Source of the DNA: Arthrobacter sp. SDTb3-6
Lineage (GTDB): Bacteria > Actinomycetota > Actinomycetes > Actinomycetales > Micrococcaceae
Reading direction: 5' to 3'
NCBI RefSeq assembly: GCF_013376095.1
Contig: NZ_JAAMFN010000003.1
Location: forward strand, 62,001 to 126,000
DNA length: 64,000 nucleotides
Position 1 is the first letter of the stretch; each line of letters starts with the position of its first letter. Made by a program: the position numbers and the translations under genes. Of the stretch, positions 37,507-41,980 are shown piece by piece. The notes under the pieces were generated by a model. The model made no database searches and was not told the DNA's origin. It saw nothing but the letters and a program-made list of their open reading frames with translations.

Positions 37507-39261
37507 TCAGCCCGCGTACGATGCCTGGCCCAGTCCCTTGACGGCGGGCTGCCAGGAGTTTCCCGCCTGCGAGTACATTTGCGACGGTGTCTGGGCGTGC
37601 ACATCGTGCAGTCCTGCCCCGGCACTGAGCCAGGTGGCGCCCTTGAGCGGCGCCAGCGTTGAGGTCGGCCTGGCGAAGTCCAGGACCTGGATGGCCACCT
37701 CGGACGTCGTGGACGGTGCCATGGCGGCGACGCTGGTCTCGCCGGTCCACACGCCGATGGTCGGCGCGCCCTCGTGGGCCAGGTTGATGGGCTCTGTCAG
37801 TGCCTTGGGGACCTGGCCGGAAACGGAGATGCCGGTGATGGAGACCTGGCTTTCCCCGTGGGCGTTGGAGATGACGAGGGCGCGCGTGCCGTCACGGGAA
37901 ATTCGGAAGGTGGTGACCTCCCGGCCGGTCAGCCACGGGACGGTGAGCACCACCGGCGCCGCTGCCTTGGCCCCGGGGTCGGCGTTGGCGGCGAAGACCA
38001 TGCCGGAGCCATCCCCGGCGGCGGTCCACAGCCATCCGTTCGGGGCGAAGGACGGCGCGGTCAGGGCCACACCGGAGGCGACGTTGTCCGGCGGGTGGCC
38101 CGCCGAAACGGTGAAGGCGTGGTTGCCGTCGGCGGAGAGGAAGGCAAAGTTCTTCTCGTTGTAGGACATGGCCGGCTCGTTGGGGCCCAGCGCCGCCACG
38201 GAGCCCAGCCCTGCCACGCGGGCGACGGTGCCGCCGTCGTACATGGCAAGCTCGTTTTTCGAGATGCCCACCTGGGCGGACGGGACGGGGTTGTCGATGA
38301 CCATGGCGGGCACGGCGTCGCCGGATCCGCCCATGTCCACCTCCCGGTCGTCGGCCAGGAACTGCACCTCCGTCACGTCGTTCACGGCCCCGCGCAGGGA
38401 GACGAGCAGCTGCGCATGCATGCGCTGGCGCTGTTGCACGCTCGATTCCAGCAGCGGCTGGGCGGTCAGGCCCACCTTGGCCAGGCCGTTGTTGACGGAC
38501 ACGGAATCCCGGGCCAGCGACATGCCCGCCGGAAAGGCGCTGAAAACGGCGCCCTTGAGGTAGGGGGCCGGCCCGGCCAGCATGTCCCGGACAATGGACG
38601 TGGCGGTGCGGGAGCCCGTTCCGGCCAGCCAACGGACATCGGGCACGCCGTAGGTGTAGGTGGAATCGTAGAAGTAGAGCGTGACCGGCTTGAAGAGCAC
38701 GTTGAAGGTGTCCTGGCTGAGCACCACGCCGTCGGGCGTCTTCGCAATCCGCCATTCCCCGTCGACCTGGACCAGGTCCATTTCGATGGTGTCCGTCGAC
38801 CCTGCCGGTGCGGGTGTCATCACGCCGGTCGAATCCACGGAGGAAACGGTGTCGAACTTGACCAGGTAGGAGTCCTTGGCCTTGCCAGGCGTGACTGAGA
38901 CGGTATTGGTGTAAACCAGCGTGCGCTTGTCCGCAGCCCACGACTGGGCCAGCGGGGCAGTCAGGTACTGCCTGGCGGTCTGGAAGTCGTCACCAATGCC
39001 GGTCCCCGAGTCAATGAATCCGCGGATGATGCTTTCCGGCGACGCCCCGGCCACCGGGTTGTACTGCTGGTAGTCGACCTTGTTGGAGTTGCTGCGCGTG
39101 CTCACCGGGTCGCTGGTGCCGACCGGCCCGTCGGTGGGGATGGCCGCGCATCCCGCCATGAAGAGCACGACGGCGGCCATCGCCAGCAGCGCCGGAAACC
39201 CCTTGCGCCGTGGCTGGCGGTGGCGCGTGTCCAAGGCCCTGGCCGGCAGGGTATCCCTCAT
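37507..39261 (-). CDS. lpqB: Lipoprotein LpqB
   Basis: 584 aa. Signal peptide with lipobox MAGC (Cys near residue 38), then a GerMN domain (about 200-310) and a C-terminal beta-propeller-like LpqB domain. In actinobacteria LpqB interacts with the extracytoplasmic part of MtrB and tunes MtrAB signalling during growth and division. The start overlaps the mtrB stop by 4 bp (ATGA-type), so it is translationally coupled to mtrB. If mtrB is really broken upstream, polar effects on lpqB are possible. Confidence 0.93.
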   Translation of the reverse strand: MRDTLPARALDTRHRQPRRKGFPALLAMAAVVLFMAGCAAIPTDGPVGTSDPVSTRSNSNKVDYQQYNPVAGASPESIIRGFIDSGTGIGDDFQTARQYLTAPLAQSWAADKRTLVYTNTVSVTPGKAKDSYLVKFDTVSSVDSTGVMTPAPAGSTDTIEMDLVQVDGEWRIAKTPDGVVLSQDTFNVLFKPVTLYFYDSTYTYGVPDVRWLAGTGSRTATSIVRDMLAGPAPYLKGAVFSAFPAGMSLARDSVSVNNGLAKVGLTAQPLLESSVQQRQRMHAQLLVSLRGAVNDVTEVQFLADDREVDMGGSGDAVPAMVIDNPVPSAQVGISKNELAMYDGGTVARVAGLGSVAALGPNEPAMSYNEKNFAFLSADGNHAFTVSAGHPPDNVASGVALTAPSFAPNGWLWTAAGDGSGMVFAANADPGAKAAAPVVLTVPWLTGREVTTFRISRDGTRALVISNAHGESQVSITGISVSGQVPKALTEPINLAHEGAPTIGVWTGETSVAAMAPSTTSEVAIQVLDFARPTSTLAPLKGATWLSAGAGLHDVHAQTPSQMYSQAGNSWQPAVKGLGQASYAG

Positions 39262-41268
39262 GATTCCGCCTTTCCCTGGTCACCGTGGGACGGCGTGCCG
39301 GTCTTGGCCACGCCGGGGCCGGCGGCACCGTTGTGTGTTGTGGAACCGGCAGGGCCGACGGCGCCCAACGCGCCGACCACGCCAAAGGAGCCGGTGTTGG
39401 TCATGATAGGGCCGGTGTTCAGGTGCAGCGACGCGGCCGCGGCACCGCCGTCGGGGGGAAGCGGTACCGGGGAGTGCTCCAGCTCGCCGCCGCGCTTGCG
39501 CGGGAGCGTGAGCCTGAAGCAGGCGCCCTCGCCAGGGGTGCCCCAGGCATCAAGCCAGCCGCCGTGCAGCCGCGCGTCCTCGGTGGCGATCGACAGGCCC
39601 AGGCCGCTGCCGCCGGTGGTGCGTGCACGGGCCGGATCGGCCCGCCAAAACCGGTCAAAGACGTGTTCCAGGGCGTCCGGGGACATGCCGATGCCGTAAT
39701 CGCGCACGGCCACGGCCAAGGCACTTTCGTCGGCAGAGACGAAAATCTTCACCGGCCGGCCTTCACTGTGTTCCAGGGCGTTCAGGACCAGGTTGCGCAG
39801 GATCCGGTCGATGCGGCGGGCATCCATTTCCACGATGCATTTGTGGTTGCGCAGCCTCGTGACCACGGAAAGCTGGCTGTGGTTGGCCTCGGCGACGGGC
39901 TGTGCGGCGTCGATCACGGAGTCGATGACGGAGAAAATGTCCAGGGATTCAACATCGAGGTCAGCCACGCCGGCGTCAAACCGGGAAATCTCCAGCAGAT
40001 CGGCGAGCAGCAGTTCAAAGCGCTCCACCTGGTGGAACAGCAGCTCCGAGGAACGCTTGTTGATCGGGTCAAAGTCGTCGCGGGCGTCGAACAACACCTC
40101 AGCGGCCATGCGCACGGTGGTCAAGGGTGTCCGCAGCTCATGGGAGACATCGGAGACGAAGCGCTGTTGCATCTCGGAAAGCGCGGCCAGGGCGTTGATC
40201 TGGTCCTGCAGGGACGTCGCCATTTTGTTGAACGACGTGGCCAGCCGCGCCATCTCATCCTCGCCCACCACCGGAATGCGCTCTTCGAGCCGGCCGGCGG
40301 CAAGTTTCTCGGACACCGCAGCGGCCAGGCTGACCGGCCGGACCACCATGCGCGTCACGTACCAGGTGATGGCGCCGATGAGCAGCAGCAGGATGCCACC
40401 GGCAAGCCACAGCACCGACTGGATGTAGTTCTAAGGTCAGCTGGGCGCTGTTGAGGTCATAAAACATGTACAACTCGTAGCCGGTGTTCAACAGTTCCAC
40501 CTGGGAGCCGATCGCCACCGCCGGGTGGCCGCCGGAGGATCCGGTGGGCAGTTCCATCGACTGCCAGAACTGCCCCGTCTTGTTCGCCTGCACCACTTGG
40601 CGCAGTTCATCGGGGATGATGGCGGAGGTAACGCCGATGGACCCGACGGAGCTGACGGCCAAGGTGCTGTCCTGGTGCGGGATCTTCACCATCAGGTACT
40701 TGCGGTTGTCGTCTGAGCCGCCCACTTCCAGCAACTGCAGCTCGTCGCGGACAAAGGTGGAAACCCGTTGCTGGTCGCTGAGGCTGGCCCCGGAGAAGCT
40801 TTCCTGGACCTGGGTGGCACCACGGCTGGATTCCACCTGGGCCTGGGCCAGCCTTTCCTTGAACAGTCCGCTGGAGATCTGTCCGGCAAGGTAGCCGCCG
40901 ACCCCAATGACGGCGATGGAGGCAATGACCAGCGTGGTCAGCACCGTGCGGAACTGCAGCGAAGTGCGCCAGCTGCGTCCAAGGGCCGCCTCGCCGGCCT
41001 TCAAGGCTCGCCAAATGCCCCGGCCGGCCGCCGCCAGGCCATGGCACAGCTGCGACCACGCGCGCGCCATGGCACCGCCGGGCTCGTCGGGGCCGGGCAC
41101 GTCGGGGCCGGGCTCGTCGGGGCCGGGCTCGTCCGTGCCAAGCGGCGGGGCCGCAGCGGCCGCCGGCGACGGGGGCGCAAAGGATGTGCCGGCGTCGGGC
41201 CCGCCTGCGACGGCGCCGCCGGAACCGCTGTCCACCGGGTGTCCCGTCCCTTCCTGACTGGTTTTCAT
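39258..41268 (-). pseudogene. mtrB: Sensor histidine kinase MtrB, interrupted by a one-base frameshift
   Basis: Two overlapping frames encode the halves of MtrB. The 5' frame (41268 to 40255) gives a Pro-rich N-terminus, TM1 (TVLTTLVIASIAVIGVGGYL) and the extracytoplasmic domain up to MFYDLNSAQLTL, then unrelated residues. The 3' frame (from about 40429 to 39258) gives TM2 (LWLAGGILLLLIGAITWYV), HAMP, the His box SDVSHELRTPLTT and the ATPase domain (ALEHSEG, GSGLGLSI). Removing one A on the minus strand (T at 40432) restores TLNYIQSVLWLAGG. MtrB with MtrA controls cell-wall hydrolases and division. Real mutation or sequencing error cannot be told from here; everything else looks intact. Confidence 0.88.
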
Positions 41269-41305: not shown

Positions 41306-41980
41306 TTACTGCCCGGCCTTGTAGCCCACGCCGCGCACAGTCAGGACCACTTCGGGGGCCTCAGGGTCACGTTCAATTTTAGAACGCAGGCGCTGGACGT
41401 GGACGTTGACGAGCCTGGTGTCGGCTGCGTGACGGTAGCCCCACACCTGTTCCAGCAGCAGTTCGCGGGTGAAGACCTGCCACGGCTTGCGTGCCAGCGC
41501 CACGAGCAGGTCAAATTCCAGCGGGGTCAGCAAAACCCGCTCGCCGGCGCGGCGAACGGCATGGCCGGCCACGTCGATGGTGATCTCGCCGATCGACAGG
41601 GTTTCCGGGGCCTTCACGTCGCCCGGGCGTAGGCGGGCACGGACGCGGGCCACCAGCTCCGCGGGCTTGAACGGCTTGGCCACGTAGTCGTCGGCACCTG
41701 ATTCGAGGCCGCGGACCACATCGGAGGTGTCCGACTTCGCCGTCAGCATGACGATGGGCACGTCGGATTCGCCGCGGATGAGCCGGCACACTTCAATGCC
41801 GTCGATCCCGGGCAGCATGAGGTCCAGCAGCACCAGGTCCGGCTTGTTCGAACGGAAAGTCTCCAGCGCCTTGGCACCGTCGGCACAAAAGACGGGGTCG
41901 AATCCATCATTGCGCAGCACGATCCCGATCATCTCGGCCAGTGCTTCGTCGTCGTCTACCACTAAAATGCGTGCCTTCAT
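41306..41980 (-). CDS. mtrA: Response regulator MtrA
   Basis: 224 aa OmpR/PhoB-family regulator. Receiver domain with acidic pocket VVDDDEA (7-13), phospho-acceptor D53 in LLDLMLPG and the conserved Lys in YVAKPFKPAEL; C-terminal winged helix ending LRSKIERDPEAPEVVLTVRGVGYKAG. Start ATG at 41980 gives the family N-terminus; the in-frame open stretch running upstream to 42889 is antisense to a plus-strand gene and not coding. No Shine-Dalgarno sequence is visible, so the mRNA may be leaderless. The gap to mtrB is 37 bp. Confidence 0.97.
   Translation of the reverse strand: MKARILVVDDDEALAEMIGIVLRNDGFDPVFCADGAKALETFRSNKPDLVLLDLMLPGIDGIEVCRLIRGESDVPIVMLTAKSDTSDVVRGLESGADDYVAKPFKPAELVARVRARLRPGDVKAPETLSIGEITIDVAGHAVRRAGERVLLTPLEFDLLVALARKPWQVFTRELLLEQVWGYRHAADTRLVNVHVQRLRSKIERDPEAPEVVLTVRGVGYKAGQ

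Follow-up and report, generated by a model that had tools for sequence, protein, structure and literature searches.

In S. venezuelae, a strain deleted for mtrB grows at a normal rate, with raised MtrA and a shifted metabolome, and these effects are attributed in the same source to constitutive phosphorylation of MtrA (PMC5487470, in part). In C. glutamicum, both mtrA alone and mtrAB can be deleted, and the cells become elongated and altered in their drug sensitivity (PMC3353115, in part). In mycobacteria and corynebacteria, deletion of MtrA or MtrB changes cell morphology (PMC9599347, in part); therefore, selection against loss is expected. The portion of PMC9395588 available contains nothing bearing on MtrB loss. 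The original prediction for the locus described here held that a true loss of mtrB would be striking, which is too strong given that the deletions in S. venezuelae and C. glutamicum are viable. By analogy with these deletions, it is plausible that a strain without MtrB could live, at some cost.

The locus lies in a stretch of 64,000 nucleotides of Arthrobacter sp. SDTb3-6 (the window), within a contig of 185,178 bases (C68) that belongs to a 4.31-Mb draft assembly of 144 contigs with a completeness of 99.97% and a contamination of 1.36%. The gene order on the minus strand is mtrA, mtrB and lpqB, and mtrB is identified in part by its position between the other two, whose names rest on the original prediction and on our reading of their translations. 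The features of the locus are as follows.

41306-41980, minus strand: mtrA response regulator, 224 amino acids, intact.
40255-41268, minus strand: front open reading frame of mtrB, 337 amino acids, with an N-terminal extension, the first membrane helix and the sensor domain, followed by 59 out-of-frame residues.
40428-40436, minus strand: place of the frame change, with one extra base relative to all 89 aligned relatives, at the column of 40432.
39258-40415, minus strand: kinase half of mtrB, 385 amino acids from GTG 40415; the frame is open from 40430 (390 codons).
40350-40415, minus strand: second membrane helix, residues 1-22 of the kinase half, predicted from hydropathy.
40203-40358, minus strand: HAMP domain of the kinase half (PF00672).
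39969-40169, minus strand: HisKA phospho-acceptor domain of the kinase half (PF00512).
39495-39824, minus strand: HATPase_c domain of the kinase half (PF02518).
37507-39261, minus strand: lpqB, intact and conserved; its start codon ATG shares bases with the mtrB stop (ATGA, 39258-39261).

The two halves of mtrB are open in different frames, as had been proposed, and against the NCBIfam model of MtrB (NF040691, 507 positions) they align consecutively and without overlap, the front reading frame to positions 1-185 and the kinase half to positions 190-507. The kinase half alone scores 530.4 bits, above the curated cut-off of 450 bits, and the front half scores 95 bits; no single open reading frame here covers the whole model, and the sensor and the kinase are in different frames. 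When the whole genome was scanned with NF040691, the two adjoining pieces were recovered in their different frames and the kinase half was the sole place above the cut-off; a second mtrB copy was sought in the same scan and was not found, the next kinase scoring 199.9 bits. According to hydropathy, the front reading frame has a single hydrophobic helix at residues 103-132 and its 59-residue tail has none, and translation from GTG 40415 would begin the kinase half at the onset of the second helix. The N-terminal extension carries a 15-base tandem repeat of 3.8 copies (41077-41133), which encodes a proline-glycine-acid repeat. An Rfam scan of the window gave no matches.

The break is reduced to one base by comparison with relatives. 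In an alignment of 89 loci (L006-L065 and L070-L098, with 85 distinct site sequences and some rows repeated), every relative has one base fewer at the column of 40432, and the only further gap within 40400-40465 occurs in a single locus (L045), at 40408. The prediction of an extra base is thereby narrowed to a single column, and the suggestion that 40429-40431 are nearly equivalent to it is unsupported by the relatives. The frame of mtrB is uninterrupted in all 22 congeners searched, at 605-736 codons compared with 390 for the kinase frame here, and for the longest of them (L078) a second count gives 666 codons. Across these congeners, between 227 and 307 codons separate the upstream stop from the kinase half. 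Relative to the single uninterrupted genes of two congeners, G021 and G018, identity is 88-89% in the kinase half and 65-67% in the front half, and because both halves are so similar to single intact genes, their adjacency is more than chance. By the kinase half, Arthrobacter wenxiniae (93%), Arthrobacter sp. GMC3 (87%) and Specibacter cremeus (75%) come nearest among named relatives, in a list from which entries for this genome itself or for one very close to it may be missing. The strain is presumably an Arthrobacter-like actinobacterium of environmental origin.

Programmed ribosomal frameshifting or transcriptional slippage could in principle join the two frames. The codon at the frame change, TTA, is indeed rarely used, as originally noted: it occurs 16 times among the 4,613 leucine codons counted across 117 gene-like open reading frames of the window and six further stretches of the same contig, and a rare codon at this place would suit such a mechanism. 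However, the site contains no homopolymer, the nearest runs of at least three bases being 40461-40464 and 40443-40445; nothing resembling a known shift signal is seen by inspection; and the frame change is absent from all 89 relatives, so the shift site is not conserved. We therefore reject frameshifting and slippage, which we regard as extremely improbable.

Another reading is that the extra base is real and that the gene works through two polypeptides, one carrying the sensor and the other a kinase fragment that is anchored in the membrane and starts at GTG 40415. The kinase half read from this codon retains HAMP, HisKA, HATPase_c and the whole second helix, and it is under strong purifying selection; we also counted in favor of this reading a statement on osmotic activation in part of a review. 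However, no Shine-Dalgarno-like sequence is found in the 22 bases before GTG 40415, and the front reading frame stops approximately 160 bases downstream of this codon, so a termination-coupled restart is not available. Moreover, the arrangement occurs in none of the aligned relatives, and the purifying selection on the kinase half is equal in relatives with an intact gene and thus lends no support to the split. The lack of a homopolymer, of a Shine-Dalgarno-like sequence and of conservation makes it unlikely that the frame change is programmed or that the gene is designed as a two-protein kinase, and we give the latter only a slender chance. It is just as doubtful that MtrA is acted on by a sensor-less, membrane-anchored MtrB kinase fragment from GTG 40415 that needs neither LpqB nor the sensor domain; if it were, the fragment would represent a natural uncoupling of sensor and kinase within an actinobacterial system that is widely conserved. 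Thus, of the three readings offered originally, two polypeptides are weakly supported, and an assembly error and a recent loss both fit the observations.

An error would mean that the extra base is a single fault of the consensus or the assembly and that mtrB is in truth ordinary and unbroken in the organism. The draft state of the assembly in 144 contigs favors this reading, as does the strong conservation of mtrB, which is uninterrupted in the 22 congeners and whose kinase half is matched (E 1e-90) in 390 of the 395 genomes of the family, its own included. We compared the gene-like open reading frames of G021, a closed congener, in stretches matched to contigs C68, C55, C1 and C112 (C53 and C62 were left out), with the corresponding stretches of the present assembly, a homologue being defined by at least 60% identity. 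Among 273 such frames, 187 pass this threshold, and the comparison covers approximately 68,000 aligned residues, or roughly 200 kb of the genome. A single frame over at least 80% of the length was found for 178 of the homologues, with four partial and five split, and mtrB alone among the 187 is a true split, in which both sides have coding composition; the 5′ part of each of the other four splits has no coding composition. Two of the partial cases are cut by the end of the compared stretch, one is a shadow open reading frame and one is an upstream extension. The same comparison with G018 (58 frames, 51 with a homologue) gave 47 in a single frame, one partial and three split, and mtrB was again the sole true split. 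By codon-position composition, the other splits are upstream-extended reading frames or antisense shadows, and their gene names (peptidase, desulfurase, folP and ribD) come from our reading of the translations. Within the part of the genome that was sampled, a general error problem is therefore rejected.

These results weigh against a consensus error, and so does the location of the extra base, which lies outside any homopolymer and approximately 83 kb inside the contig, measured from its nearer end. In addition, this DNA has only one full-length match within its own genome, which shows that the locus is not a collapsed repeat. The solitary split in the sample, the lack of a homopolymer, the distance from contig ends and the high completeness are also the observations that speak for a genuine loss. 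However, a lone consensus error would look identical and likewise predicts no decay of the gene.

Decay was sought in both halves. For the kinase half, the dN/dS of the window is 0.058 against G018 and 0.061 against G021, compared with 0.056 between G018 and G021. The corresponding values are 0.306, 0.209 and 0.188 for the front half and 0.290, 0.227 and 0.142 for lpqB, and because lpqB shows a similar rise, the raised value of the front half does not set the broken gene apart. We also counted private amino-acid changes in the window, G018, G021 and a further congener, G006, in that order: 16, 14, 5 and 23 in the front half; 6, 3, 8 and 11 in the kinase half; 40, 16, 9 and 88 in lpqB; and 0, 1, 1 and 4 in mtrA. 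By dN/dS and private changes, neither half of mtrB shows clear decay beyond its neighbors; mtrA and lpqB, which had been described as intact, are open and conserved. The break is therefore either very recent or not real; the lack of decay counts in favor of an error, and the dN/dS of the kinase half equally suits a very recent genuine loss. As an indication only, from a hand calculation that assumes a clock, more than the six private changes seen would be expected if the kinase half had been unselected for more than approximately 4% of the branch of the window (approximately 0.34 synonymous changes per site).

Broken mtrB genes are found in other genomes, and they were surveyed in the family and in a sister genus. 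Two of the five family genomes without a kinase-half match have a split mtrB instead, and together with the 390 matched genomes this indicates that loss of MtrB is unusual; frame lengths cover part of the 390 matches, and the broken cases are those among the matches listed. In the sister genus, 137 of 141 genomes were matched at E 1e-60, with frames shorter than 500 codons in three (G465, G502 and G435). When six odd genomes were re-examined, mtrB was found in two frames in four of them (G502, G435, G325 and G229), and G465 carries two incomplete copies, each on its own contig. In G229 (C4:778473-779988) and G325 (C112:18598-19619), the break falls inside the kinase domain, and since these genomes are 99% and 96% complete, respectively, with a contamination of 1%, broken mtrB genes are not limited to poor genomes. 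No MtrB-grade match was found in G488, a sister-genus genome that is 96% complete (best score 201 bits), which possibly reflects either a true absence of mtrB or an assembly gap. In G502, the break is at model position 191, near the site described here, and the frame of 409 codons equals that of Arthrobacter sp. Hiyo8 (L045), a public complete genome; the two are probably the same genome. All three genes compared in Hiyo8, mtrB and lpqB included, lie in several frames, a pattern that suggests consensus or sequencing errors and so counts in favor of an error here. In Pseudarthrobacter sp. Fe7 (L063), another public complete genome, a single frame holds the upstream gene, mtrB stops early (385 codons) and lpqB is spread over two frames. 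The re-examined genomes fit both a real loss and an error, and therefore our estimate of either is unchanged.

Taking this evidence together, we consider that there is about an even chance that the extra base is a genuine disabling mutation of the sequenced culture, an isolated frameshift of one base that arose very recently where the second helix begins, and we slightly favor this reading over a lone consensus error, whose probability we place somewhat short of even. If the mutation is genuine, translation from the mtrB start would yield a product of 337 residues with the first helix and the sensor and without the second helix or the kinase, and MtrA would presumably be left without its cognate kinase/phosphatase. 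The gene normally ends on the start codon of lpqB: in 75 of the 89 relative loci, as in the window, the mtrB stop overlaps the next start by four bases (ATGA, GTGA or TTGA; counted where the following open frame has at least 100 codons), which suggests translational coupling. Because of this overlap, translation that halts approximately 1 kb early may lower the expression of lpqB. With a genuine mutation, this strain would be naturally deficient in MtrB within a family in which the gene is almost always retained, and it could be used to study MtrA without its kinase in Micrococcaceae. If the base is an error, the record presents a conserved kinase as two fragments.

Under either reading, the event is most simply of an ordinary kind, a lone frameshift rather than a new type of gene. 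It resembles the MtrAB mutations of evolved strains (PMC12914118, in part), which are small insertions or deletions in an MtrAB gene arising in culture; however, those are deletions in mtrA, whereas one base of mtrB is concerned here and its reality is unproven. The table in the available part of that source labels the mtrA deletions as frameshifts, yet the lengths given there, 6 and 21 bases, are divisible by three. The mtrB of Hiyo8 is similar in that its frame is broken 24 bases from the place seen here, but it has one base fewer rather than one more, and the other two compared genes are also in several frames. With the MtrAB-LpqB system of Actinobacteria, the window has in common the order mtrA-mtrB-lpqB, the sensor, the two membrane helices, the HAMP, HisKA and HATPase_c domains and the stop-start overlap; it differs in that mtrB is read in two frames, so that the sensor and the kinase are found together in no single open reading frame.
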